In this document: in pieces, positions 31,086 through 51,272 of the stretch
Layout of the letters: each line of letters opens with the position of its first letter
Numbering within the stretch: the first letter of the stretch is position 1
Source of the DNA: Candidatus Bathyarchaeota archaeon
Lineage (GTDB): Archaea > Thermoproteota > Bathyarchaeia > Bathyarchaeales > Bathycorpusculaceae
Length of the DNA stretch: 64,000 bases
Reading direction: 5' to 3'
Assembly (NCBI GenBank): GCA_903901015.1
Contig: CAIUPH010000114.1
Span: forward strand, 1 to 64,000
Notes under the pieces: model-generated
Told to the model about the DNA's origin: nothing
The model's input: the letters and a program-made list of their open reading frames with translations, nothing else
Database searches by the model: none
Translations under genes and position numbers: made by a program

Positions 31086-32603
31086 ATTGCTTTATTCAAC
31101 CGCTTCCCTAATCAAGTTAGGTTTTTAGACACCACCCTGCGTGATGGTGAACAAACTCCCGGTGTATCTTTGGTTCCTGAAAATAAACTGCGCATAGCCC
31201 AGAGGCTCGACGAGCTCGGCGTAGACGTGATTGAGGCTGGGTTCGCCGCGGTTTCTGAGGGCGAAATGGAATCTGTCACCTTAATCGTTAAGCAGGGTTT
31301 GCGCGCTAAAGTTTACAGCGCCGGAAGAGGAACAAAAGGCGACATCGACGCGGTTTTGAAGAGCGGCGCATCGGGCATATCCATGATTATACCCACGTCA
31401 GATTTGCATATCGAATGCAAGCTGCGAAAGACCCGCGAGCAAGTATTGAAAACCACTGAGGAATGCGTGCAGTACGCCAAAGACCACGGTTTAACAGTGG
31501 AGCTTTTGGCGGAGGATGCAACCCGCAGCGACTTCGCTTACTTAACCGAGGTTTTCAAGGTGGCTACTGAGGCTGGAGTGGACAGGGTTACTCCATGCGA
31601 TACCGTGGGGGTTTTGACTCCTGAACGCTCAGCAGAGTTCTTCTCAAATCTCAAGAAAACCCTCAAAGTACCATTAGCGGTGCATTGTCACAACGACTTC
31701 GGCATGGCAGTCGCAAGCACCATCGCGGCGCTTGGCAGCGGCGCAGACGAGGCACACGTCACCATAAACGGCTTGGGTGAACGCGCAGGTAACGCGGCGC
31801 TCGAAGAAGTCGTAATCACCCTCAAATCGCTCTACAAAATGGATTTGAATGTCAAAACAGAGTTGCTTTACAGTACTTCGCAGTTGGTTTCACGCTTGAC
31901 TGGAGTGTACACGCAGCCCAACAAGGCAGTTGTGGGCGCCAACGCTTTCACCCATGAGTCAGGCATACACACTCAGGGCGTGCTCGTTAACCCGTTGACT
32001 TACGAGCCCATCGCGCCCGAACTGGTCGGTTGCACACGGCGCATCGCGCCAGGTAAACACAGCGGCAGCAACGCCATACGTGCAGACTTAACCAACATGG
32101 GCTTAAAACCCACCGAGACACAATTCAAGCTAATCTTCCAGCGCGTCAAGGAACTGGGCGACAAAGGCAAAACTGTCATGGACGCCGACGTACTCGCCAT
32201 CGCTGAATCCGTCATGGGTTTAGATGTTGCGAAGCCGATTCAACTGGAAGAAATGACGTATGTGGGCGGCGACAAAGTTACGTCGACTGCTTCAGTGCGC
32301 TTGAAACTGAACGGCAAAGTGGTCTGGGGCGCGGCAGTCGGAGTTGGACCCGTTGACGCGACGATAAATGCTGTGAAAGACGCTATCGCTGAAACCGAGC
32401 CCATCACTCTTGAGCAGTACATGGTTAAAGCCATCACGGGCGGCACAGACGCCATGGTTGAGGTGGTGGTGCACATGCGTAAGGGCAGCCGAACCGTCAC
32501 TGCTATGGGTGTGCGCGAAGACATCGTTAAAGCAAGCATGGAAGCAGTCCTTAGCGGCATGAACGTGCTAACAACCGACTACAACAACAAAAACCAGCAC
32601 TGA
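31086..32603 (+). CDS. 2-isopropylmalate / citramalate synthase family, copy 2
   Basis: Second condensing enzyme of the LeuA/CimA family. [16 protein letters not shown] is encoded from about 31122, with VHCHNDFGMAVAS, HESGIHTQGV and a C-terminal LeuA dimer domain. The first TTG in frame (31170) lies inside this conserved region. Upstream the frame is open from 31074 but has only ATT (31086) as a near-start, while the ATG at 31079, followed by a GGG run, is one base out of frame. Dropping one G would give a normal N-terminus. A TATA-like TTATATTT is near 31038. Placement after ilvD suggests branched-chain use, perhaps citramalate synthase. Confidence 0.85.
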   Translation: MALFNRFPNQVRFLDTTLRDGEQTPGVSLVPENKLRIAQRLDELGVDVIEAGFAAVSEGEMESVTLIVKQGLRAKVYSAGRGTKGDIDAVLKSGASGISMIIPTSDLHIECKLRKTREQVLKTTEECVQYAKDHGLTVELLAEDATRSDFAYLTEVFKVATEAGVDRVTPCDTVGVLTPERSAEFFSNLKKTLKVPLAVHCHNDFGMAVASTIAALGSGADEAHVTINGLGERAGNAALEEVVITLKSLYKMDLNVKTELLYSTSQLVSRLTGVYTQPNKAVVGANAFTHESGIHTQGVLVNPLTYEPIAPELVGCTRRIAPGKHSGSNAIRADLTNMGLKPTETQFKLIFQRVKELGDKGKTVMDADVLAIAESVMGLDVAKPIQLEEMTYVGGDKVTSTASVRLKLNGKVVWGAAVGVGPVDATINAVKDAIAETEPITLEQYMVKAITGGTDAMVEVVVHMRKGSRTVTAMGVREDIVKASMEAVLSGMNVLTTDYNNKNQH

Positions 32604-40257: not shown

Positions 40258-40392
40258 GCCGGGGTAGCCTAGCCTGGCTAGGGCGCCAGACTCATAATCT
40301 GGTAGGACAAACCCAGATGAGAAATCTGGAGACAATAAATGGGGCTAAACGCCTGTTGCCAGAAGTCGCGGGCTCGAATCCCGTCCCAGAAG
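40258..40392 (+). tRNA. tRNA-Met(CAT), 5' part joined to element-borne 3' part; two introns; acceptor stem broken
   Basis: The acceptor strand GCCGGGG (40258-40264), D arm and anticodon stem CCAGA/TCTGG with loop CTCATAA are intact. A perfect BHB motif is present: helix CCAGA, 4-bp CTCA/TGAG, 3-nt bulges TAA and AAA, inner helix TCTGG/CCAGA. It predicts a 27-nt intron at 40297-40323 (position 37/38). A second motif (CTGG/CCAG, bulges AGA and AAG) predicts a 33-nt intron at 40332-40364, leaving the standard variable loop AGGTC. The T arm GCGGG-CTCGAAT-CCCGT is fine, but the 3' acceptor CCCAGAA pairs with only 4 of 7 positions. It is therefore probably inactive as it stands. CAT could also be a tRNA-Ile2. 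Confidence 0.75.
40284..40302 (+). repeat. attL core (19-bp direct repeat)
   Basis: CGCCAGACTCATAATCTGG, identical to 50501-50519. It covers the anticodon stem-loop of the tRNA. Flanking bases differ immediately on both sides (G/T before, T/A after), so the crossover lies within these 19 bp. Confidence 0.92.
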
Positions 40393-40586
40393 CAGAATTA
40401 GCGTCTGTTTCGACGAACGGCACCAATTCGACCCTGCTACCCCAACACAATCCCCAAAAGCCCCAAAATAGGGGTATTGATAACACCATTGATAACAAAA
40501 CTGCTAAGAATCGCCCACCGCAATTAAACATAGAGGACAGAAAGCGTTTATTCTACTCAATCCTATCTGAAGGGGTTCACCAATGA
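40303..40586 (+). pseudogene. 3' part of the att-spanning gene, cut off by integration
   Basis: Downstream of the core the frame runs on (NLVGQTQMRNLETINGAKRL) through the tRNA-like sequence to a TGA at 40584-40586 that overlaps the integrase ATG (ATGA). In the excised circle this frame is continuous with the gene starting at 50261: 259 + 284 = 543 bp, 180 codons plus stop, with no frameshift. In the integrated state it has lost its own start and promoter. The C-terminal half is hydrophilic, rich in N, K, P and T. Confidence 0.8.
40476..40496 (+). repeat. Arm-type repeats, left side (2 x ATTGATAAC)
   Basis: Two copies of ATTGATAAC start at 40476 and 40488, 12 bp apart. They are the reverse complement of the three GTTATCAAT copies at the right end. 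They resemble arm-binding sites for an integrase N-terminal domain or an excision factor; that role is inferred. Confidence 0.6.
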
Positions 40587-41428
40587 CACAAAATGAAGAC
40601 GCATTCACTAAATTATTTACTGATTGGCTACTAAACGAAAAAAAACTCAATGCTAAAGTTGTATACGAATATGCTAGAATATCCTTCAATTTTACGCAAA
40701 AAGCAAAGATAAGCGAATTTAACCCAAATGAAGACCCACAACAAAGAAAGCAAGAAATTCAAGAGAAAGTAAAAACTTTCCTAGACTTAGAGAACCCTCA
40801 TAGCTACAGAAATAATTTAGCATCTTTAAAGAAATTATTTGAATTCATTGGCGAACCTGAAGTTATGGAAGGTTTCAAATATAAAGCGATAATGCCGACT
40901 TTTAGCATACAAACACCTAGCATAGATGATATGGTTAAATTTGGTAAGGCAATAGAGAACCAAAAAATTCAAGTCTATTATTATTTAGGGGTAGTTTCGG
41001 CAATTAGACCTGAACACCTTCTAAGACTTAGAAAAAAGCTATTTGACAAAAACAATAATATGATTAATACATGGATGAAAGTTTTCGGCAAAAAGAACTT
41101 TTTCTTCAGTTTCTACACTAACGAAACTAAGCCACTGATTGAAGAATATCTTAAGCAGATTCCAGATAATGAAGTGCTATTTGATTTCGGCAAAAGATAC
41201 ATATGCAAAGAATTCTGTAAAGCGTCTGAAATTAGCGGTGTCAAAATCGTGCCTAAAATGATGCGAAAGTTTTCTACCAATTGGTTAAGACGGCATGGCA
41301 TGATTAGCGAAGACGTAGACGTTATAACTTCTCATGTGCCTCAAAGCGTAGTAGCAAAGAACTATCTAGACGTTAGCCGAATTCACGAATCATATAATGA
41401 AGCCACTGAAAAGCTAAAGATTCTCTAA
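40583..41428 (+). CDS. int: Tyrosine recombinase / integrase
   Basis: 281 residues. The catalytic domain shows R142 in IRPEHLLRL, a lysine near 170 (VFGKKNF), R228 in KMMRKFSTNWL, H251 in SHVPQSV and the nucleophile Y261 in VAKNYLD. The usual box-II histidine before R228 is absent (KMMR), as in several archaeal viral integrases. The N-terminal ~100 residues form a helical core-binding domain. Its ATG overlaps the stop of the att-spanning frame, so in the circle it would be translationally coupled to that gene and to the ATPase operon. After integration the upstream part is lost, which should lower its expression. Confidence 0.92.
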   Translation: MTQNEDAFTKLFTDWLLNEKKLNAKVVYEYARISFNFTQKAKISEFNPNEDPQQRKQEIQEKVKTFLDLENPHSYRNNLASLKKLFEFIGEPEVMEGFKYKAIMPTFSIQTPSIDDMVKFGKAIENQKIQVYYYLGVVSAIRPEHLLRLRKKLFDKNNNMINTWMKVFGKKNFFFSFYTNETKPLIEEYLKQIPDNEVLFDFGKRYICKEFCKASEISGVKIVPKMMRKFSTNWLRRHGMISEDVDVITSHVPQSVVAKNYLDVSRIHESYNEATEKLKIL

Positions 41429-41883
41429 GGTTCCATATCTCTTTTTAATCTCTTTTTATCGCCAAGTTTCTAAGTTCTAAAATACATCAAATAAGTGGAC
41501 TCTTTGCTTCTTAACAAATTAAAAACCGTTATGGATGTTATGCATCGCGGAAATATACATTAATAGTTAACGTGGGTTTGCATGGTTTAGGTTGGCTAAG
41601 GATGGTGTTATCAATCACCAGATGTTAAGTCTGAAGATTGTTAACAACATAGGTCAGTTTTTGCCCGCCGCAAAAAACCCAAAGTTAATGCGTCATAAGG
41701 CATGGATAAATTGAATGAAGCATGTTCGATTTTTTTCGGCTTGTAAATGGATTAATAAAGTTAAATAGGATAAAATATCCCCGTACCAGCCTAAATAAGC
41801 CCAAAACGTGACCGAATAGACTCCACTCTAAACTTATCGCTGAATAAAAATAAACTTTGGCATACGTAAAAAAAGAAATGGGT
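41429..41883. other. Intergenic region after the integrase
   Basis: 455 AT-rich bp without a gene. It contains a further GTTATCAAT at 41607-41615 within GGTGTTATCAATCACC, the same 9-bp word as at both element ends. GTTAACAACA lies near 41640. A T-rich run follows the integrase stop and may terminate it. Confidence 0.4.
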
Positions 41884-42117
41884 TTAGAGGTTTTCTAATT
41901 CTTTAGGATACTTATTGAGAAATCTAAAGCGAAGGCACAAGTTAATTTCAGGTTTTCTATATAATTCGTAAACTGCTAAAGTTCTGTAGCTATTGCTTAA
42001 AACAGCATAATCTTTTTTGTTAATTGTTCGACACTCTACTGTTTGACTAGGGCAATCAGCTTCTTTACCGAACCTTTGAACATACGCTTTGAATAATCTT
42101 GTTTCTAAGTAGTCCAT
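41884..42117 (-). CDS. Unknown element protein (77 residues)
   Basis: A small protein starting MDYLETRLFKAYVQRFGKEA. It has two cysteines (DCPSQTVEC) and a basic C-terminus. No family is recognised. It is the third gene of a leftward unit; its ATG lies 2 bp after the stop of the previous gene, and the GTGATTGA spanning that stop is its probable ribosome-binding site. Confidence 0.6.
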   Translation of the reverse strand: MDYLETRLFKAYVQRFGKEADCPSQTVECRTINKKDYAVLSNSYRTLAVYELYRKPEINLCLRFRFLNKYPKELENL

Positions 42118-42119
42118 GT

Positions 42120-42626
42120 TCAATCACTTTTTTGTGGTATTCCCCATGCCTTGTTTAGAATATCGGTGTCTTCTTTTGTTAGCCCTTCTATAACAAAAAC
42201 AGGGTACAATCCGTTATCATTTGCGTTTGTTGAACCTAGTATAATATCGTCTTTATCACTAGACCATATCTTAGCGAAAGTTTTTGCTTCTTCCACTGTT
42301 TTGCATTCTTTGATTAATCTATGTTCAAAGCTGTGTAACTTTCCGTTTTCAATGTAGCCGTCTGGAATTATTCCCTTTTCTCTAGGGTCATAAATCATTT
42401 TTCCTTGTTTGCTTTTCTCAAGCATTGGTGTATAGCCCAAAATGATGTTATGCGATGATAAACACATGAAACCCCAAAACGCTAATTGTCTAGCATTGGG
42501 ATTCCCTATTTGGCAGAAATGATTTTCGCAAATTCCACAGCCCACTATTTTACAACATTTATCGCCGTGTCCATGTGTCGTATGTTCTTGATTTGTTAAA
42601 GGACATTTAATAGTTAGTTCTTGCAT
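42120..42626 (-). CDS. Unknown cysteine/histidine-rich element protein
   Basis: About 168 residues. The N-terminal third has eight to nine Cys and several His (IKCPLTNQEHTTHGHGDKCC, then GCGICENHFCQIG), suggesting one or two bound zinc ions. The C-terminal part contains EAKTFAKIWSSDKDDIIL and FVIEGLTKEDTDIL. No known family is recognised. It is the middle gene of three, with GTGATTGA immediately before its start. Confidence 0.65.
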   Translation of the reverse strand: MQELTIKCPLTNQEHTTHGHGDKCCKIVGCGICENHFCQIGNPNARQLAFWGFMCLSSHNIILGYTPMLEKSKQGKMIYDPREKGIIPDGYIENGKLHSFEHRLIKECKTVEEAKTFAKIWSSDKDDIILGSTNANDNGLYPVFVIEGLTKEDTDILNKAWGIPQKSD

Positions 42627-42628
42627 GG

Positions 42629-42904
42629 TCAATCACTTTCTTGGTTTTCTGCGTTTTCGACAATATCGATAAAATCGTAAGTGATTGCCATAAGTTCTAG
42701 GAAATCAGTTTTGTTTTTTAGCTTTAGCTTTGAAATGTTGTGTTCACTTAGAATCTTCCTCATTATCTTGCTACTGCAATCTTCGCAAATATTTGCATAG
42801 CCATCTTTGTCGTAAAATGCATTATATTTTGTTTCAGTTTCTTTTTTGCTACGGGACTTTGGGTTCGTAGCCTGACCCTTTAAAGGTTCTTTAATTTGTG
42901 TCAT
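42629..42904 (-). CDS. Unknown small element protein with CxxC
   Basis: 91 residues from the ATG at 42904; the frame extends upstream to 42928. The N-terminus is basic (KSRSKKETETK), and ICEDCSSKIMRKIL carries a CxxC. The C-terminus is acidic and helical. It is the first gene of the leftward trio. No homolog is recognised; it could be a small zinc-binding regulator. Confidence 0.6.
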   Translation of the reverse strand: MTQIKEPLKGQATNPKSRSKKETETKYNAFYDKDGYANICEDCSSKIMRKILSEHNISKLKLKNKTDFLELMAITYDFIDIVENAENQESD

Positions 42905-43164
42905 AATCGCAAGAGTATACAAAATCACTATTTATACGTTGTTTATCTGAAACAATGTACCTGCAAATTGATTAATTGATTCATTTTTAGTTTATTTTTG
43001 AATTTAAGATACAGTTATATAAAAAGCTAGCGGATAGAGAAAAAGCAACATATAATAGCATCTAGGTCTTAATTCAGAAAAAACAATAAAATCAAGCTTA
43101 AGGAATACTTCTTCAGAGAAGCAAAAAGAAGCTTGAAAAGAGAAGGCAATTTAGAGTAAAAAAC

Positions 43165-43626
43165 TTAACTGAGCAGTATTCCCTTTCCACAGTTCTTCAT
43201 GACACAATTTGAAATTGTTATCCCGTTACCTATTATGAGACCGTTTTTTGTTGCTACAATCGGTAATTTGCCTATATGAAAGAAACCGTTAATTTCAATG
43301 TTGTCTGGTGTGTGTACTATCAATTCAAAGAAGAGTTTCTTGTCTGATTTCCGAATCAAAGAAAGGTTCTTCACTTCGCTTCCATCGTGTTTCTCAATTG
43401 TCTCATAATCAGAATGAACAAAAACGAAAGATGTGGATTTATGAATCTTACCCAAGAGTTTTCCAAATTCATCTCTTACTTCTACATCTATAAGTGGCTT
43501 CGAATCCGAACTTCTTAGTTCATATTTGAAAAGTTCTTTTTCTCTTCCATTCTTAACGTAATTGATTATTCCATTAGTGTCTATGTATTGATTGCTTCCA
43601 AGAGTAATATTGACCAATTCAATCAA
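43165..43626 (-). CDS. Unknown element protein (153 residues)
   Basis: Predicted beta-rich protein: IELVNITLGSNQYIDTNGII, then VEVRDEFGKLLGKIHKSTSF and FELIVHTPDNIEINGFFHIG. The final 35 residues (GLIIGNGITISNCVMKNCGK) look like turns of a beta-helix. No signal peptide is seen. The function is unknown. It is transcribed leftward with a gap of 72 bp to the large surface-protein gene upstream. Confidence 0.6.
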   Translation of the reverse strand: MIELVNITLGSNQYIDTNGIINYVKNGREKELFKYELRSSDSKPLIDVEVRDEFGKLLGKIHKSTSFVFVHSDYETIEKHDGSEVKNLSLIRKSDKKLFFELIVHTPDNIEINGFFHIGKLPIVATKNGLIIGNGITISNCVMKNCGKGILLS

Positions 43627-43698
43627 CTTACTCTTCTTGTAAAACTGCCTGAGGTTTTAAGGTTTTGCATCGCTTGCTTTTGTAGATTAAAAAAATTC

Positions 43699-45324
43699 TT
43701 AAAGAAAAGAATTATGCTGTTTAGCTTTTCTTATATTGTTCTTTCTTATAGTGATGGTTACAGCGAAAAGCGACAGAATCACGAATATGCCTAAGACGGC
43801 TATGGCTGGAAACTCTGGAACAGTAGGAGTTGGTGAAGGTAAAGTGGATGAAGTAACAGTTGGGATTGCTGTTGGGTTTGATGAGGTTGGCGAAGTTGTA
43901 GGTGATGATTTTGGACTTGCTGTTTGGGTTGGATTCGCAGTTGGTGAAACAGTTGGTGAAGGAGTAGGTGTTGGTGAAGGAGTAGGTGTTGGTGAAGGAG
44001 TAGGTGTTGGTGAAGGAGTAGGTGTTGGACTTGGAGACGGGGTTGGAGTTGGGTTAGGGGCAAAAGTTGCTGAGATGGTAGTTGCACCATTAACGTTTTG
44101 AACAGTATAAGAATTAACTGTACCCACTGAAGTTCCATTAACCAAAACATTAACTATGTAATAACCAGTATTTGGCGTTATATTGAAAGTTTGACTGCCG
44201 CCATAGTTAATGCTCATAGTTCCACTTGGGCTGATAGAACCACCCGTACTATTAGAAGCAGTAATGTAGGTTGGTGCTTGAGAATTTGGTGCATTCAAAA
44301 ATGGGCTGTATGTAACTGTACCTAAGTTGAAATCATTTTTAAAATCATAAATAGACTGGCTGATGGCTGTTGAATTAGTTGTTCCCCACCAATTATAAGT
44401 AGCATTTACGCTGATTGGAATATTTGATTTGAAATTATAGTTGCTGTTATTGTAGATATTATTATTCAGAATTGCTGGTTGAGGTGCAGTAATTCCAATC
44501 CAATCAATATAAACGCCAATTGTGTTGTTTGTGATTGTGTTATTTCTAACTAATGGGGAACCAAGATTGGAACCTTGCCATTCACTAATTCCTATGCCTG
44601 CTGTATTGTTGATTATTACGTTATTTTCTATGACGTAAGTAGGATTATCTGAAAAAGATGTAAAGGAATGGATTCCGTCTCCGCAACCTGATATGATATT
44701 ACTAGAAATTGTTGTATTGCCAGTAGCAACGGGGTTTTGCCAGAGAGAAATTCCCTGATTAAGGATAGTGTTATTAGAAATCGTGGCTATTCCACCCCAT
44801 TGAACACTGATTCCATTTGTTATAATATTGTTTGAAATTACAGATGTTCCATTTGCCCTTTGCAATATGCTTATGGCGTTATTGATAGTATCATTATATA
44901 TTTTGGCTGAATTACTTAATGCTAAATCAGAATTCAAAACCGCATTCTCTATTATTGAACCTGTGCCAGTAGATTGGTTCCAACCAGCACCGAACTGGGT
45001 GAAAGTTATTTGTCCTCCGTTGAAAGTGATGGAGTTGATACTGTTCCCCAATGCTTGCATTGTGCCATTAACCATTATGTAATTACTATTGAGGTTTACA
45101 GTTACACCTGACTGAATTGTCAAATTAACGCCATTGTTTACAAGAAGGTTTCCAGTTAAAATGTATGGGCTATCTGCTTGTGTCCATGTAGTGTCTGAAG
45201 TAATTACTCCACTTACGTTTGTAGAAGCTTGCACTAAATCAAAATGTATAGTGCCAAATAAAACAACTGAACTAACAATTAATGTTATTAAGAATATGCT
45301 TAACCGTGTTTTATTCATCTTCAA
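43699..45324 (-). CDS. Exported beta-helix surface protein with PEFP C-terminal anchor
   Basis: 541 residues. A signal peptide ([17 protein letters not shown]) is followed by a right-handed beta-helix of NosD/pectate-lyase style with many short N-rich repeats such as [14 protein letters not shown] and [15 protein letters not shown] beta domain ([20 protein letters not shown]) comes next. A Pro-Thr-Ser linker of about 70 residues is partly encoded by perfect 18-bp tandem repeats. [11 protein letters not shown] then leads into a transmembrane helix and basic tail, the archaeal PEF-type anchor layout. It likely binds a surface or polysaccharide, or is a spike-like protein; this is inferred. Confidence 0.85.
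43955..44026 (-). repeat. Four perfect 18-bp tandem repeats
   Basis: The unit GGTGAAGGAGTAGGTGTT (forward strand) repeats four times exactly, with degenerate copies on both sides. On the coding strand it gives a six-residue Pro/Thr/Ser unit (TPTPSP) of the stalk. Copy number probably varies between strains by slippage. Confidence 0.95.
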
Positions 45325-45402
45325 TCTTCCACTAAATCGTATTACCGCTTATTCGCATGCCATCTTTTAAACTTATGTTAGTTTTTGCCTTTGCTTTTTA
45401 CC

Positions 45403-46668
45403 TTATGTATACGGATGAATTTTTTTGGTTTTTATCTCTAAAGCATCAAACAAGTCTATGCGTCTTTTGCCGTCAACAAACCTATATGTGAATAATCTTT
45501 GTAAGGTGTCAAAGTCACTTACTTCCACATATTGGCATGAAACGTCTTTCTTGCTCCATGTTTTATCTAATAGCTTTTCAAATGGCTCTCTAAAAGTCAA
45601 ATACTGAACATTACCGTACAGGGTATTCTTGTTGTATTGTATAATTTTGAAGCTGTTGTCAAAGTGTATGTATGTATATTCTCCAAGTTCTTTAGCCCAT
45701 CTTGTTTTTCTGCCTTTTTTCGTGAATTCGGCTGACTCTACTATGTCGAATAGTTCCCATTTTAATGGGATTGTATGATGATAAAATCCATAGGGGTTAG
45801 TTATTCGCTTCTTTGTTTCATTGTCATATCCAACTATCTTGGAAGATGCGTGTTTATTCACTGGTAGACAACTTTCGAATATATTCCCGTTTTCAAAGGT
45901 AAGTGTTATGCTTACTAAGCCTTCAAAAAATGCTCTTACCCATTGAGCATGGCTACCCATTTCAAATTTATGGAATTCCACTTTAGCATTAACTATCTTT
46001 TCAATAGACTTAACAGCGTTCAATAACGGCAAATTGAGTAAATCGAAAAAGTCAATCTGTAGCCGTGCATATTCGCCAAGTAACAGATAAGTTTCGTCTA
46101 GGTCTCTGAGAGCTTCCAAGAATGGGTTAGCTCTGTAAGTTAATGCTCCACCTCTACCAAACGGAACTATCCATTTCAATTTAACTAATAATTGCATGTT
46201 CCGCTTTAGTTGTCTCTTGCTGACTCTATTTCTTAAATAATGTTCCAAGTCAGTAAAGCTTGCTATTCTAAAGTGACCTACATAAAACACAATCTCAGGT
46301 AATACTAAAAATCGTGTGGTCTTAGGGGCAGTATGTAAACGGTCTTCTCTCCCTTTTACTAGATAAATTTTTGAAAAAGTTAATAGGTCATTTAGGCTCA
46401 TTATGAGCTTGTTTTTCTGTTCGGTTCTATTATCGTCTTGAGTTAGAGTAATAAATAATTGATTTAACTCTCCTATTTTGCTACTAAAAAAGCTGTTTTT
46501 TATGTCATTGGGCTTTAGGTTTTTTACCCTATTTTTATTTAAATTTTCTTTATTTGCCCTGTACTTCTTTCTTCTATTCTTATTGATTCGTTCTTTATTC
46601 TTGTTATAGTAACTTTGCTGTTTACTGATTTTCCTTATGTCAGTATTTACTTCTGAGAGTAAACTCAT
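45403..46668 (-). CDS. Unknown basic element protein (421 residues), possible DNA-binding/replication role
   Basis: The N-terminal 55 residues are Lys/Asn/Arg-rich with a repeated pattern (YNKNKERINKNRRKKYRANK), resembling DNA-binding tails. Residues ~115-180 look like a winged helix (SFTDLEHYLRNRVSKRQLKR, then WIVPFGRGGALTYRANPFL). The C-terminal part is mixed alpha/beta without recognised catalytic motifs. It is the largest unassigned gene of the element and lies next to a 380-bp AT-rich non-coding region, so a replication initiator is a reasonable guess, nothing more. Confidence 0.65.
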   Translation of the reverse strand: MSLLSEVNTDIRKISKQQSYYNKNKERINKNRRKKYRANKENLNKNRVKNLKPNDIKNSFFSSKIGELNQLFITLTQDDNRTEQKNKLIMSLNDLLTFSKIYLVKGREDRLHTAPKTTRFLVLPEIVFYVGHFRIASFTDLEHYLRNRVSKRQLKRNMQLLVKLKWIVPFGRGGALTYRANPFLEALRDLDETYLLLGEYARLQIDFFDLLNLPLLNAVKSIEKIVNAKVEFHKFEMGSHAQWVRAFFEGLVSITLTFENGNIFESCLPVNKHASSKIVGYDNETKKRITNPYGFYHHTIPLKWELFDIVESAEFTKKGRKTRWAKELGEYTYIHFDNSFKIIQYNKNTLYGNVQYLTFREPFEKLLDKTWSKKDVSCQYVEVSDFDTLQRLFTYRFVDGKRRIDLFDALEIKTKKIHPYT

Positions 46669-47048
46669 ATAATCTGTTTCCCGTTCCTAATCAATCTAAA
46701 AATTAGCAGTTTTGGCTAACTAATTTATCACTTGATTAAAGTATGGTGTCGTAAGCTATAATATAAGCTTTATGCACTGTGCTTAACAGATTTAGTTACA
46801 TGTCTTTAAAAGATATATTTGCTAAGAAACGCATCGAAGTGAAAGGAGAGTAAATAGGAAGGGAACCGTCATAGGAGACATTATTATGCTGACGGCAAGA
46901 CATAATTAGGTATATATAATGCAATTTCAAGTAATTAAGTATTTTCTTTAATGTTACGTTTATACATATAAAGTTATATTTTATAGGAAGTTATAAATAG
47001 GTGAATAGCAAATTTTTGATTATAAAGTAGCAAATCGTAAGTGATAAT
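46669..47048. other. Divergent AT-rich region, candidate promoter/origin
   Basis: 380 bp between divergent genes. It has several TATA-like sequences (GGTATATATAATG near 46910, ATATAAAG near 46967, TTATAAATAGG near 46990) and very short frames such as MSLKDIFAKKRIEVKGE at about 46800. No long inverted repeats were found by eye. GTGAT at 47041-47045 is the ribosome-binding site of the next gene. Confidence 0.4.
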
Positions 47049-47318
47049 ATGAGAATAAAAACGTATCATACTGTTTCTTTGGAAACGGAAAATAAAAAAT
47101 TGTTAGAAGAATTAACCGCAATTATGGAATGCTCTAATCAAAACGAATGTTTAAGTAAAATCTTGAAACCAATGTATGAAGCCTTCTCATTCTATAAGAC
47201 AGGAAAATTAGAATCGTATCCGTTAGCTTCACGGGCACAGATAGTTTTTCAGCTTTACCCAAAACAAGCCTATGTAACTTTTGGTCAAAACCAACCCATG
47301 CCAAACGGAGACGATTAG
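47049..47318 (+). CDS. Small element protein, ribbon-helix-helix-like
   Basis: 89 residues. The N-terminal half (YHTVSLETENKKLLEEL, then NQNECLSKILKPMYEAF) has the strand-helix-helix pattern of RHH regulators. The C-terminal half is not recognised. It starts the rightward gene set after AAGTGAT. It may control the divergent promoter, which is inference. Confidence 0.55.
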   Translation: MRIKTYHTVSLETENKKLLEELTAIMECSNQNECLSKILKPMYEAFSFYKTGKLESYPLASRAQIVFQLYPKQAYVTFGQNQPMPNGDD

Positions 47319-47320
47319 AT

Positions 47321-47494
47321 ATGTCTAAAAAAATTATAAAAGATTTAGAAAACAAGCCTAGCGATTTTACGCATGGCATTGATGACAGAGATTTTTCTAA
47401 ACATACAGAAACCGAACCCGAAATTTTTCCAGAGATGGAACCATTCTGTAAAAGTCGTCAACCTCAAGATAGACAGAAATTGATTAGAGAGTGA
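47321..47494 (+). CDS. Unknown 57-residue element protein
   Basis: An ATG at 47321, 2 bp after the previous stop, reads SKKIIKDLENKPSDFTHGID and ends QDRQKLIRE. It is charged and without motifs. The stop TGA at 47492 lies inside the GTGATTGAG that precedes the next ATG at 47500, so the genes form one translational chain. Confidence 0.55.
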   Translation: MSKKIIKDLENKPSDFTHGIDDRDFSKHTETEPEIFPEMEPFCKSRQPQDRQKLIRE

Positions 47495-47499
47495 TTGAG

Positions 47500-48081
47500 A
47501 TGACAGAGCAACCAATTATACCAATTAAGAAAGAAAATAACATTCGTGTGATTCTGGATGCTAGTCCACAACTTAAGAACGCTAACGACCAAATTGAAAA
47601 GCTGAATCAAGAAATCGGAAAAAAAGACGAATTACTGAAGACATTCATGGCTCAAACTGCCGAATTCGAAAAACGAAAGATTGAAGAAAAAAGTACAGAA
47701 TCAAAACATTATATTAAAAGAGAAAGTGAAGAGACCGCACGATTAGAGACCCCTGAACCCCAAAAGCAGACATATGAGCTAGACCCCGAATGCGATGTTC
47801 CAAGAACCCTTAAAGGTGAAAGCATTTCTGAGGTTATAAATTTCCTTAGTGTGAATGCTAAACGGGGAAATTTGGATTCAAAACGTATTCTGAATGATTT
47901 GACCAAAAAAATAATTCACAACACTAAACCGCTAGATTTTGAATTTCATGGAGATTCTAAGCTTCTATGGAAAACCCCACTTCCTATAAGCGAATTTGAT
48001 TCAGATGAAAGAAAGAAAGCTGTAGCGAATTATAATGAAAAGTTACGTAAGAATCGCACTGAAAATTGGAGAGTGAATTAA
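47500..48081 (+). CDS. Unknown coiled-coil element protein
   Basis: About 193 residues from ATG 47500; a GTG at 47491 is also in frame. Residues ~25-70 form a likely coiled coil (NDQIEKLNQEIGKKDELLKT). The C-terminal half is charged, with RTLKGESISEVINFLSVNAK. No family is recognised. It ends in TAATG, overlapping the next gene by 1 bp. Confidence 0.6.
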   Translation: MTEQPIIPIKKENNIRVILDASPQLKNANDQIEKLNQEIGKKDELLKTFMAQTAEFEKRKIEEKSTESKHYIKRESEETARLETPEPQKQTYELDPECDVPRTLKGESISEVINFLSVNAKRGNLDSKRILNDLTKKIIHNTKPLDFEFHGDSKLLWKTPLPISEFDSDERKKAVANYNEKLRKNRTENWRVN

Positions 48082-48581
48082 TGAGTTTGCCTAGAACACA
48101 TCATAAGCCAATTTCGGGTCAATGGAAGCAACTTCCAAGTGGAAAGGTAATATGGCGTGAATTTCTTTCAACGTTCGGTGATAACTTTAAGGATTTTGAC
48201 CCACTTGATTTAATCGGCATAAGCAGAGAAGCAGATTTTAAAATTGTGTTTGTAAAAACTGACCCTGACCCAACTAAATTTAATTCAAGAATATCTAGGT
48301 TTTTCTGTCAAGATGTACACATGGAATTAAGAGAGGATGTAAGCGAAAACATTGTATTGAAATTCGGTTCTGACAAGTGCTATTATATTTCAGATTTAAC
48401 TCCACTAGGAAAAACGCTTAAAGCAGTTTTAGAGAGCAATCCCGAATTAATTGTTAACATTTCAGAGCCTTACTTAATTTCGCAAATTCAAGCAATCGCA
48501 TTTCTAAATCAATGGAACTATGGCTATGGTCGTGTCGAAGTTTCTGCTAACGGGTCAATTGAATATTATAAGACGGTTTAG
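48081..48581 (+). CDS. Unknown element protein (166 residues)
   Basis: The ATG overlaps the preceding stop. It contains WKQLPSGKVIWREFLSTFGD and KFNSRISRFFCQDVHMELRE, and a C-terminus with WNYGYGRVEVSANGSIEYYK that resembles a beta-hairpin. No recognised domain or membrane segment is present. It belongs to the rightward element operon. Confidence 0.55.
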   Translation: MSLPRTHHKPISGQWKQLPSGKVIWREFLSTFGDNFKDFDPLDLIGISREADFKIVFVKTDPDPTKFNSRISRFFCQDVHMELREDVSENIVLKFGSDKCYYISDLTPLGKTLKAVLESNPELIVNISEPYLISQIQAIAFLNQWNYGYGRVEVSANGSIEYYKTV

Positions 48582-48599
48582 CTTGGATTTGATTAAATA

Positions 48600-48728
48600 A
48601 TGAAAAATGATGATTTGTGTCATAGATGCAAAAAATGTAATGTGACCGTTCTTGAAATTCGTGAGGACACAGCATATTTTGTGTGCGATATATGTGGACT
48701 AATTAGGTCGAAAGACAAAAACCTCTGA
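48600..48728 (+). CDS. 42-residue zinc-ribbon miniprotein
   Basis: A short frame with five cysteines: DDLCHRCKKCNVTVLEIRED and then YFVCDICGLIRS. The two CxxC pairs 19 residues apart are a classic zinc ribbon. It starts 18 bp after the previous gene. It probably binds nucleic acid or a transcription component. Confidence 0.65.
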   Translation: MKNDDLCHRCKKCNVTVLEIREDTAYFVCDICGLIRSKDKNL

Positions 48729-48969
48729 AATAGCCCCTACCAGTACAGAAATATTGACTTTTGGAAAAGTAGTCTGAAAAATAGGGATTGCCAAAAGTAA
48801 ATTGAAGTTATGTTTAACTTTCTGTTTATTTGAGATTTATATTTACTATTTTTAATGGTTCTTAATTTGTAGTTAAGATTCGTTTCTGCATTCCAATAAC
48901 CTGATAATTCCAAGTTTGGCGTTAATAGAAAAGCAAAATTGCTAAACCTTTTAATGCTAATAGGTTCCT

Positions 48970-50196
48970 ATGTACGATTTTATGGCTTTTTTGCTTCAAA
49001 AAAGTCGAAAAATGGCACAAAAAAAGCGAAATATTTCGAAGATTTGCTATATATTTGTCAATCTAGTTCATCATTCACCACATTTAGAAGGTGAAAGCAC
49101 GGAAAACAACCAAAACCAAAACAATGAAGGGATTCATAGCGATTTAAGCAACATCTTAACCGACATAAAGCAACATTTAGGTTTAATTCTAGTCGCTGAA
49201 TCGGGACACGGTAAAAGTTTTACAGCGTTTAGCATAGTTAAAGAAGCACTAAAAGACCAAAACATGACAGTGATAATACTTAGCCCTAGCTCTATTTGGA
49301 AAAGAAATTATGGCTTTATCAATTGTGTTCAGGTTGGAACCTCAGAGTTTAACCCCATTGTGGCAATAGATAAGACCGACATCGAAAACGTTCAATTTCT
49401 CAGAGACACGATTCATATAAACTTAGACAAAAAATACAGCTACATTAAATCTCAATGGCTAGAAGACCTTTTACGTTCTAAGGCATCTTTGCTTTTTGAT
49501 ATTCACTATTTGAACGGTAGACGCATAAAATATTTTGAATCGGTAGTTCTTGAATACATCTTTAAAATGCAAAAATCAGCAATTGATAAAGACCCAACAT
49601 ACAAACATCATTATTTGATAGTTCTAGAGGAAGCACAAACAAGTTTTGGAACTTATTCAATGAATTCAGATGATTCACTAGAGCTATTTTCACTTTTTAC
49701 AATTTCCCGTTCGGATGCCTTCATTCACTACCTAGTTTTAGGTCAACGACTAAACGATATTAGCTGTAAAATTGTTGAACGCCTAAGAGTTTTTTGTGGT
49801 CTTACGCTAGGCGAAAATAGTTTAAGGAAATTAAAAGCCATGATGCCGAATGAAGAGACTAAGAAGAGAATTCAATGTTTGCCTAAACGACATTGGATTT
49901 ATTTAAACGGGTCAACGAATCCCGAACTAGTAATTTCAGAGTATAAGAAAGAAGGAAGTGTAAAATATTTAAAACCTGAGCCGAACCCAAAAAGAACAGA
50001 GCCAAAACCAAAAGAGTCTTTGGTTTTAAGGTATATGAAATTCGTAAATAAATTCAATCCATTCGGAACCGAACCAATGACCGAAAGCATAAACCTAGAC
50101 CCGAATACTTACGACACTGAGAACAAACAAGAAAGTGAAGAGGACGCTTTAGAGGAAGATAACGCACTTCTAGAAGAGGAAGACGATTTATGGTAA
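48970..50196 (+). CDS. P-loop ATPase of the element (HerA/VirB4-like or viral packaging type)
   Basis: 408 residues. The Walker A motif is AESGHGKS at 76-83 and Walker B is YLIVLEEAQ near 215-223. LVLGQRLNDISCKIVERLRV after it resembles the sensor region of HerA/FtsK-superfamily ATPases, which move DNA in conjugation or virion packaging. The C-terminal ~80 residues are charged and acidic at the end. Possible starts are ATG 48970, 48982 and 49012. In the circular form it would lie directly upstream of the att-spanning gene and the integrase. Confidence 0.75.
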   Translation: MYDFMAFLLQKSRKMAQKKRNISKICYIFVNLVHHSPHLEGESTENNQNQNNEGIHSDLSNILTDIKQHLGLILVAESGHGKSFTAFSIVKEALKDQNMTVIILSPSSIWKRNYGFINCVQVGTSEFNPIVAIDKTDIENVQFLRDTIHINLDKKYSYIKSQWLEDLLRSKASLLFDIHYLNGRRIKYFESVVLEYIFKMQKSAIDKDPTYKHHYLIVLEEAQTSFGTYSMNSDDSLELFSLFTISRSDAFIHYLVLGQRLNDISCKIVERLRVFCGLTLGENSLRKLKAMMPNEETKKRIQCLPKRHWIYLNGSTNPELVISEYKKEGSVKYLKPEPNPKRTEPKPKESLVLRYMKFVNKFNPFGTEPMTESINLDPNTYDTENKQESEEDALEEDNALLEEEDDLW

Positions 50197-50260
50197 ATTC
50201 TCAAGTTTGTTTGAATGTTAGAAATTATGAAAAACAAAAAATTTGGAGACCTAAAAAAAT

Positions 50261-50647
50261 ATGAAAATGATTTGTCCCGAATGTGGAATTATGGGTTATA
50301 CCCAAATTAGAAAACAATACGCAAGAATTGCACATTATAGAGGTTTCAAAGGAGAATCTAGACTAGTCGATTGGCACAGTACAACCATTGAAGAACTACA
50401 GAAAGTTAACCCTCAAATTGTTATCAATAATGTTATCAATGAATCTCAAGTTTTTGTTATCAATGGAAGAAAAGCAAATTCAACATTGTTAACATCATAT
50501 CGCCAGACTCATAATCTGGAGTTTGAAGGGCCAAGCGCCTGCAACCAGAAGTCGCGGGCTCGAATCCCGCCCCCGGCACCACTTTTAAAATATTTTTTTA
50601 ACAGCTCCTTCTGTTTTTTCTGGGACATTTGGTTTTATTGTGTTTAG
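50261..50647 (+). CDS. 5' part of the att-spanning gene, with an altered tail at attR
   Basis: Starts MKMICPECGIMGYTQIRKQY with a single CxxC. The frame enters the att core at 50501 as RQTHNL. In the integrated state it continues into host tRNA sequence (EFEGPSACNQKSRARIPPPA) to a stop at 50645-50647, giving 128 residues with a spurious tail. In the circle it would instead read into the left end and finish as a 180-residue protein overlapping the integrase start. The N-terminus resembles small archaeal CPxCG proteins; the function is unknown. Confidence 0.75.
   Translation: MKMICPECGIMGYTQIRKQYARIAHYRGFKGESRLVDWHSTTIEELQKVNPQIVINNVINESQVFVINGRKANSTLLTSYRQTHNLEFEGPSACNQKSRARIPPPAPLLKYFFNSSFCFFWDIWFYCV
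50420..50464 (+). repeat. Arm-type repeats, right side (3 x GTTATCAAT)
   Basis: GTTATCAAT starts at 50420, 50432 and 50456, spacings of 12 and 24 bp. The reverse complement occurs twice at the left end, with 12-bp spacing. The copies lie 36 bp inside the attR core. They are within a coding frame (VINNVINE), but the inverted copies on the other arm encode different residues (IDNTIDN), so conservation appears to act on DNA. Confidence 0.65.
50501..50519 (+). repeat. attR core (19-bp direct repeat)
   Basis: CGCCAGACTCATAATCTGG, identical to the attL core at 40284-40302. Confidence 0.92.
50501..50578 (+). tRNA. tRNA-Met(CAT) 3' part at attR, with variable-loop intron and intact acceptor strand
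   Basis: The anticodon stem-loop is followed by AG, a predicted 29-nt intron (50522-50550), then GTC, the T arm GCGGG-CTCGAAT-CCCGC and the acceptor strand CCCCGGC with discriminator A and an encoded CCA. CCCCGGC pairs 7 of 7 with GCCGGGG at 40258. The intron junctions follow the same CTGG/CCAG helix and 3-nt bulges (AGT, AAG) as in the left copy. The D arm and 5' acceptor strand are missing, so this is the host 3' half left by integration. Fusing it to 40258-40302 restores a full tRNA with one intron and variable loop AGGTC. Confidence 0.8.
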
Positions 50648-50695
50648 GCACAAATTTTATATCGATAGGTGAACCGTTGTACTCTGAGGTTAACG

Positions 50696-50908
50696 ATGGA
50701 AACTGTTACAGTTTCAAAAAAATACCAAATAGTCATTCCAGAAAAACTGCGCAAGAGCGCTGGAATTAAACCCGGCGACAAAATGGTGGCAATAACCAAG
50801 CATGGAATCCTCCAGTACATACCCGTGCGCCCCCTAAAAGACACTGAAGGCTTTATTTCAGGGTTAGACACAGACGACCTCCGCGACGAGTCTGACAGAA
50901 TTGATTAG
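50696..50908 (+). CDS. vapB: VapB-type antitoxin, AbrB/SpoVT domain
   Basis: 70 residues. TVTVSKKYQIVIPEKLRKSA and GIKPGDKMVAI form the swapped-hairpin AbrB DNA-binding domain. The acidic C-terminus (LDTDDLRDESDRID) is the toxin-binding tail. The ATG at 50696 is preferred to an upstream in-frame start at 50669. It overlaps vapC by 8 bp, the usual antitoxin-toxin arrangement. Confidence 0.9.
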   Translation: METVTVSKKYQIVIPEKLRKSAGIKPGDKMVAITKHGILQYIPVRPLKDTEGFISGLDTDDLRDESDRID

Positions 50909-51272
50909 CATAGACAGTTTCGGCTGGATTGAACGGTTCACAAAGGGACCAAAGGCGCCTCAGTACAAGCAGGTCATTGAATCAACTCCTCCTAAAGAGA
51001 TACTCACATCAATCGTAGTTCTCTATGAAGTTTACAAGAAAATAAAGAAGCTCAAAGGCGAGGAAGAAGCGCTGCTGGTAGTTGCCGCCCTAAGTCAAAC
51101 CACAATTGTGCCCCTTGACCAAACATTATCCCTTGAAGCAGCAGATTTCAGCCTTGAGTATAACCTGCACTTCTCAGATGCAATCGTTTACGCCACTGCA
51201 CGCCACTGGAAAGCTAACCTTTACACTAGTGACACCGATTTGAAGCCGCTAAAGGCAGTGTGCTTTATTTAG
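50901..51272 (+). CDS. vapC: VapC-type PIN-domain ribonuclease toxin
   Basis: 123 residues with the PIN fold: D5 in ISIDSFGWIERF, E43 in VVLYEVYKKI, D94 in FSDAIVYATAR and a final acidic residue in LYTSDTDLKPL. Such toxins cut RNA until bound by VapB. It starts with TTG inside vapB. The pair lies about 115 bp outside attR in host-like, GC-richer DNA. Confidence 0.9.
   Translation: MISIDSFGWIERFTKGPKAPQYKQVIESTPPKEILTSIVVLYEVYKKIKKLKGEEEALLVVAALSQTTIVPLDQTLSLEAADFSLEYNLHFSDAIVYATARHWKANLYTSDTDLKPLKAVCFI

Follow-up and report, generated by a model that had tools for sequence, protein, structure and literature searches.

A 10.2-kb integrative element probably exchanged the 3' half of an archaeal elongator tRNA-Met gene for one with three introns

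Two published ideas bear on how archaeal tRNA genes gain introns: protection from integration, and delivery by mobile elements. The first was proposed by Randau and Soll (as cited in PMC4090602). The second derives from the tRNA-Thr(GGU) locus of Caldiarchaeum subterraneum, where an attP with an intron was proposed to have recombined with an attB that had none (Sugahara et al. 2012; PMC3293823), a model cited as a proposed mechanism by Badel et al. (2021; PMC8371274). Sugahara et al. also suggested that exclusion of competing viruses would be to the element's benefit (PMC3293823). Thaumarchaeal elements occur within intron-containing tRNA genes (PMC6563490). tRNAs with three introns are known in Pyrobaculum (PMC4390854) and multi-intron tRNAs in Atabeyarchaeia (PMC4390854, PMC11291895); as we read these reports, they tie no mobile element to the introns, unlike the case described below, in which three lie on a single element-borne tRNA half.

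The window analysed here, 64,000 nucleotides of a contig from a Candidatus Bathyarchaeota archaeon, offers a close parallel to the Caldiarchaeum case. In our reading, to which we assign a probability of roughly 0.87, a 10.2-kb element integrated into the one elongator tRNA-Met gene known in the host and swapped that gene's 3' half, raising its introns from one to three. The two loci share an attachment site that carries part of a tRNA with an extra bulge-helix-bulge (BHB) intron, a displaced fragment at the other end and a native variable-loop intron. In Caldiarchaeum the element measures 1.8 kb, added a single intron (24/25), involves a 5' fragment of the tRNA and has a recombinase that only a classifier predicts. 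In the present locus the net gain is two introns (37/38 and 68/69), the complete 3' half bears all three, the tyrosine integrase is recognisable, attL and attR are exact, and about 30 relatives have empty sites. It is a cleaner, multi-intron variant of the intron-gain idea of Sugahara et al. (2012); what is new is that the element is complete and can be identified, that the 3' half it delivers is entire and has three introns, of which the host gene previously lacked two, and that the att sites, the empty sites and the donor lineage are all visible.

The complete elongator tRNA-Met (CAT) gene at attL spans 168 nt (40258..40425, + strand), encodes its CCA and is interrupted by three introns, which together account for 90 of the 168 nt. 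Intron 1, at position 37/38 (40297..40323, +; 27 nt), is framed by a canonical 3-4-3 BHB, CCAGA-CTCA-TAA-TCTGG ... CCAGA-TGAG-AAA-TCTGG, and its 5' end, ATCTGG, repeats exon sequence. Intron 2, in the variable loop (40332..40364, +; 33 nt), has a BHB with central helix CTGG/CCAG, bulges AGA/AAG and inner helix CAATA/TGTTG, and leaves the variable loop AGGTC. A preliminary description of the locus had reported both motifs, the first as a perfect 3-4-3 BHB; the first is exactly as it stated, and the second is present as well. It placed the end of the tRNA near 40392, which is too early because it overlooked a third intron, at position 68/69 in the acceptor stem (40388..40417, +; 30 nt). The BHB of intron 3 combines the helix CGTC/GACG and bulges CCA/AAC with an 8-bp inner helix and an outer helix of only 2 bp; excision joins CCC to CGGC-A-CCA and so creates a perfect 7-bp acceptor stem, GCCGGGG/CCCCGGC. 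At the splice sites of all three introns two 3-nt bulges flank a 4-bp helix, and the intron of the right-hand copy, read from sequence, is built likewise.

Removal of all three introns yields a 78-nt tRNA that ARAGORN calls as tRNA-Met(cat); the program made no call on the unspliced left gene, and the RF00005 match to it is partial, at 30.7 bits. The likelihood of such motifs arising by chance was estimated by shuffling each intron in place 20,000 times and scoring a matching central helix together with an inner helix of at least 5 bp: the proportion of shuffles with this structure was 5e-5 for intron 1, 0/20,000 for intron 2 and 1.5e-4 for intron 3. When the DNA downstream was shuffled for intron 3, a BHB junction with a restored acceptor end arose in 0/20,000 cases. 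The left gene, with its three BHB introns, is predicted to be spliced to a working tRNA-Met.

The element itself (40284..50500; 10,217 bp) has a GC content of about 34%, against 45-48% in the host flanks. The identical 19-bp cores, CGCCAGACTCATAATCTGG, lie in the anticodon arm at attL (40284..40302, +) and at attR (50501..50519, +). A tyrosine integrase is encoded about 160 bp downstream of the left tRNA and on the same strand (40583..41428, +); it matches phrog_5127 integrase (E=1.1e-15) and, below the cut-off of that family, PF16795 (E=8e-5). Aligned with homologues its motif reads KMMR, i.e. KxxR, so that the SSV-type signature R...KxxR...Y is present and the pNOB8-type R...YxxR...Y absent; the gene is nevertheless intact, not split by integration as in the SSV type, and adjoins the tRNA as in the pNOB8 type. 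Viral contigs yielded nothing closely related to the integrase; within the class the relatives that align over most of the protein are only 22-29% identical, with short matches reaching 43%, and a search of solved structures returned no useful match. Elements of the SSV1 and pNOB8 types usually have att halves that match the host over 40-50 bp (PMC8371274); the present match is confined to 19 bp because the introns and the sequence differ.

Near the left end are two copies of TTGATAACA 12 bp apart (40477..40497, +) and near the right end three inverted copies (50419..50463, -). The window contains six in all, at 40477, 40489, 41606 (after the integrase gene), 50419, 50431 and 50455, with 12-bp spacing and opposite orientation at the two ends. 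Since 0.61 would be expected in 64 kb and none lies outside the element, the repeat is a candidate integrase arm site. The element also encodes a HerA/DUF87-like ATPase (48970..50196, +), which falls narrowly short of the PF01935 cut-off (E=2e-4). For this protein alone closer kin turned up, with homologues of 61-65% identity in three genus members, on contigs without a tRNA-Met site. In one further contig (L356, G022:C337, 4756-6016) a related ATPase and a relative of the ORF at 50261 adjoin a tRNA-Ser gene, which suggests sister elements that target other tRNAs. A large predicted secreted protein with repeats and a C-terminal membrane anchor is encoded within the element (43699-45324, - strand), and an AbrB-like and VapC-like toxin-antitoxin pair lies just beyond its right end (50669-51272). 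With direct-repeat att sites overlapping a tRNA, an integrase at one end and an empty site in relatives, the locus reads as a tRNA-targeting integrative element.

The right end carries the displaced native 3' half of tRNA-Met (50501..50581, +), with one intron and an encoded CCA; its downstream flank is syntenic with that of relatives' tRNA-Met. The host 5' part of the gene, comprising the acceptor 5' strand and D arm (40258..40283, +), is common to relatives, and its upstream flank is syntenic with their empty sites; on both sides, then, the flanks match those of the relatives' tRNA-Met locus. If the 5' half on the left is rejoined to the 3' half on the right, the result is a normal tRNA-Met gene with one intron, whose spliced product is one base apart from that of the left gene (T-stem C, against U on the left). 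In about 30 genomes of the same genus tRNA-Met is uninterrupted by the element, nearly always with a single variable-loop intron, and most members of the genus show 100% identity over exon positions 1-47.

The two 3' halves differ in their variable-loop introns. That of the right half (50522..50550, +; 29 nt; inner helix TTG/CAA) is of the TTTG...CAA type found in 3/3 of the host's nearest relatives by CarB identity: G013 (94%), G023 (92%) and G018 (90%). The intron of the left half is closest to those of G022, G017, G001 and G010 (CarB 82-85%). This distribution, with the right-half type in the nearest relatives and the left-half type in more distant ones, marks the right half as native and the left half as brought in by the element, from another lineage of the same genus. 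Earlier claims that intron 1 is absent from the right copy, where the second intron measures 29 nt, and that the two halves stem from different tRNA-Met lineages with the intron-rich one borne by the element, are thus upheld. The preliminary description had also proposed a covariation check over relatives, which came out positive for the variable-loop intron (44 distinct sequences, most from relatives) and had one relative to draw on for intron 1 and none for intron 3. Within the 44 sequences the four central pairs are invariant; both sides of the first inner pair have changed in 28, and it is unpaired in none; both sides of the second have changed in 18, and it is unpaired in one; of the five inner pairs scored, the three outermost covary more weakly. 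The covariation score was 0.358, compared with 0.03 to 0.10 for slid registers.

The single relative of intron 1 in the genus, built alike, is in G003 (PLSP01000118.1, Bathyarchaeota bog_991); it was the one named-genome match in a search for 37/38 introns of this type, which found none in viral contigs. The pattern of the acceptor-stem intron 3, searched in 256 genomes of the class, matched only in the genome under study. Other members of the family or order (L074, L076, L080, L083, L089, L293, L294, L297, L309) have a tRNA-Met with a 37/38 intron in place of the variable-loop intron; the two introns were seen together only in G003 and in the 10.2-kb element. Another contig (L084, G052:C46) ends in the 3' part of a tRNA-Met whose T loop is interrupted by a short intron of about 13 nt (TCCAAAGCGAGAG); its 5' side is unusual and may contain an intron in the D arm. 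An origin of intron 1 by tandem duplication of the anticodon arm found no support (shuffle p 0.24 and 0.12).

Three CAT tRNAs are present among the 39 tRNA hits in the genome: an initiator (A1-U72, GGG/CCC stem), a tRNA-Ile2, and the tRNA-Met at the element. The second of these (L008, G000:C92:12144-12218) is of the GGGCCCG type usual for archaeal tRNA-Ile2; its anticodon arm, GCGCCAGACTCATAATCTG, is nearly the same and differs from the att core only at the last base, yet this tRNA is itself uninterrupted. No second elongator tRNA-Met was found among the 39 hits in this draft genome (97% complete, 117 contigs, 2.6% estimated contamination), and the locus is probably the host's only such gene. 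If so, the hybrid gene must function for the cell to live, with the proviso that in a draft 97% complete a second tRNA-Met gene could be missing. The genome also encodes two splicing endonuclease paralogues, alpha (the L264 product) with Y, H and K, and beta (the L265 product) without the His. The best solved-structure match of the catalytic alpha subunit is 2cv8, with end-to-end coverage; the best-matching chains are from Sulfolobus and Aeropyrum. The pair would place the host enzyme in the two-subunit, heterotetrameric (alpha2beta2) type. Two-subunit endonucleases are associated with introns at odd positions (PMC4090602).

The exon bases CTGG at nt 40-43 are shared by motifs 1 and 2, so that the two BHBs cannot coexist and introns 1 and 2 would have to be removed sequentially. 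Fold predictions for the isolated intron 1 RNA slightly favour two hairpins (-13.8) over the BHB (-13.2), and the whole pre-tRNA is predicted to prefer a non-BHB fold by about 2.6 kcal/mol. Because the two-hairpin fold has this small predicted advantage over motif 1, the order of removal or help from protein may matter.

A similar exchange is seen in the provirus IMGVR_UViG_3300031463_000021 (L093/G256). Its left end bears a full tRNA-Met (7-114) with one variable-loop intron, and its right end (about 32333-32427) a native 3' half with variable-loop and T-loop (59/60) introns, CTCGAA[ACACAAGAACAAAGCGAGAA]TCCCG. As in the present case the same anticodon arm is targeted and a 3' half with a variable-loop intron is swapped; the displaced native half has the extra T-loop intron, however, so that integration there lowered the number of introns, whereas the present element raised it. 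In a bin of the same family as our genome (L279, G123:C71, reverse strand around 2906) viral DNA lies on either side of a tRNA-Met 3' half that has a variable-loop intron, and an integrase frame overlaps the att site; this junction is likely to be a viral attP. Related ends occur in additional contigs. Together, the provirus, the junction and the contig ends indicate that swapping of intron-bearing 3' halves at tRNA-Met recurs in the class.

From the att sites, the two halves and their origins, the introns and the enzyme genes, all of them read directly from the DNA, we infer a recombination event of the following kind. The element's attP would have carried a full tRNA-Met 3' half with three BHB introns, acquired from a former host. 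The tyrosine integrase would have swapped strands within the CCAGA-CTCATAA-TCTGG arm, between attP and the host anticodon arm, making the host gene a hybrid of host 5' half and element-borne 3' half and leaving the native 3' half stranded at the right end; the host's heterotetrameric EndA would then splice the hybrid pre-tRNA to a tRNA one T-stem base off the native one. IntSSV1 is reported to cut at the anticodon-loop borders (PMC8371274). A 37/38 intron would normally be expected to break an anticodon-arm integrase site, but intron 1 does not: since it starts with the same ATCTGG as the exon past the splice site, the DNA keeps an unbroken palindromic core despite the intron, whole in both the intron-bearing attP and the intron-less attB, and integration and excision could thus still work. 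This preservation of the core may have been selected or simply inherited.

The observations that bear on splicing could also be read as the signs of a dead gene: the left copy would be an attachment-site remnant, introns 1 and 3 unspliced insertions, and elongator tRNA-Met supplied from elsewhere. The draft state of the assembly (97% complete, 117 contigs), the free folds that disfavour the first BHB and the failure of ARAGORN to call the unspliced gene are in line with this, but the exons are perfect (acceptor stem, A73 and CCA) once the exactly BHB-bounded segments are removed, and no other elongator Met gene is among the 39 hits; we consider the proposal improbable. Another alternative is a gene with two introns, in which introns 1 and 2 form one 60-nt variable-loop intron cut at TCTGGTA|G...AA|GTC. 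Here a normal anticodon arm could be closed by the first TCTGG, forming a hairpin that the isolated RNA favours, and CTGG-TAG pairs with CCAG-AAG to leave the loop TAGTC. Its inner helix is mismatched beside the bulge, however, and two perfect BHBs fit better; moreover, in the G003 37/38 intron, of the same design, the first copy is TCTGT and could not form the full arm, and for this reason we set the 60-nt intron aside as quite improbable. That the two halves come from two genomes of the metagenome bin and are joined only by an assembly error is the least probable proposal, and barely credible: a fragmented draft with 2.6% estimated contamination makes it conceivable, but a misjoin would hardly be expected from a shared block of 19 bp, both flanks match the relatives' tRNA-Met locus, and the boundaries of the element and the placing of its integrase are those of a normal insertion.

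A proposal of another sort would supplement integration by the element instead of replacing it: the intron load would itself be selected, the element using introns to change the site and so exclude competing viruses of the same arm. Several proviruses of the class do target this arm, sharing ACTCATAATCTGGAG onward, a stretch that introns 1 and 3 interrupt. Against this, attL and attR both retain the whole 17-nt palindromic core, which may leave the site open to use, and passive capture of a former host's half accounts for all the observations; we regard such selection as unlikely, though less so than the preceding proposals. An extension of it, that the introns are shaped by the element, with the exon copy in the 37/38 intron keeping the integrase core whole while the introns alter the flanking DNA against rival viruses of the same arm, seems to us slightly more doubtful still. 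If true, it would mean that competing integrative elements are the main route by which tRNA introns spread in Bathyarchaeia, the introns being both their passengers and their weapons.

Integration of the element with exchange of the 3' half, our preferred reading, has its event on one contig and its before state in about 30 relatives, with two net introns gained in an essential gene; a single locus in a soil archaeon shows how mobile elements can add introns to such a gene. Taken with the provirus, in which an intron was lost by the same route, this gain makes a model that had been built on one locus testable across a class of archaea.
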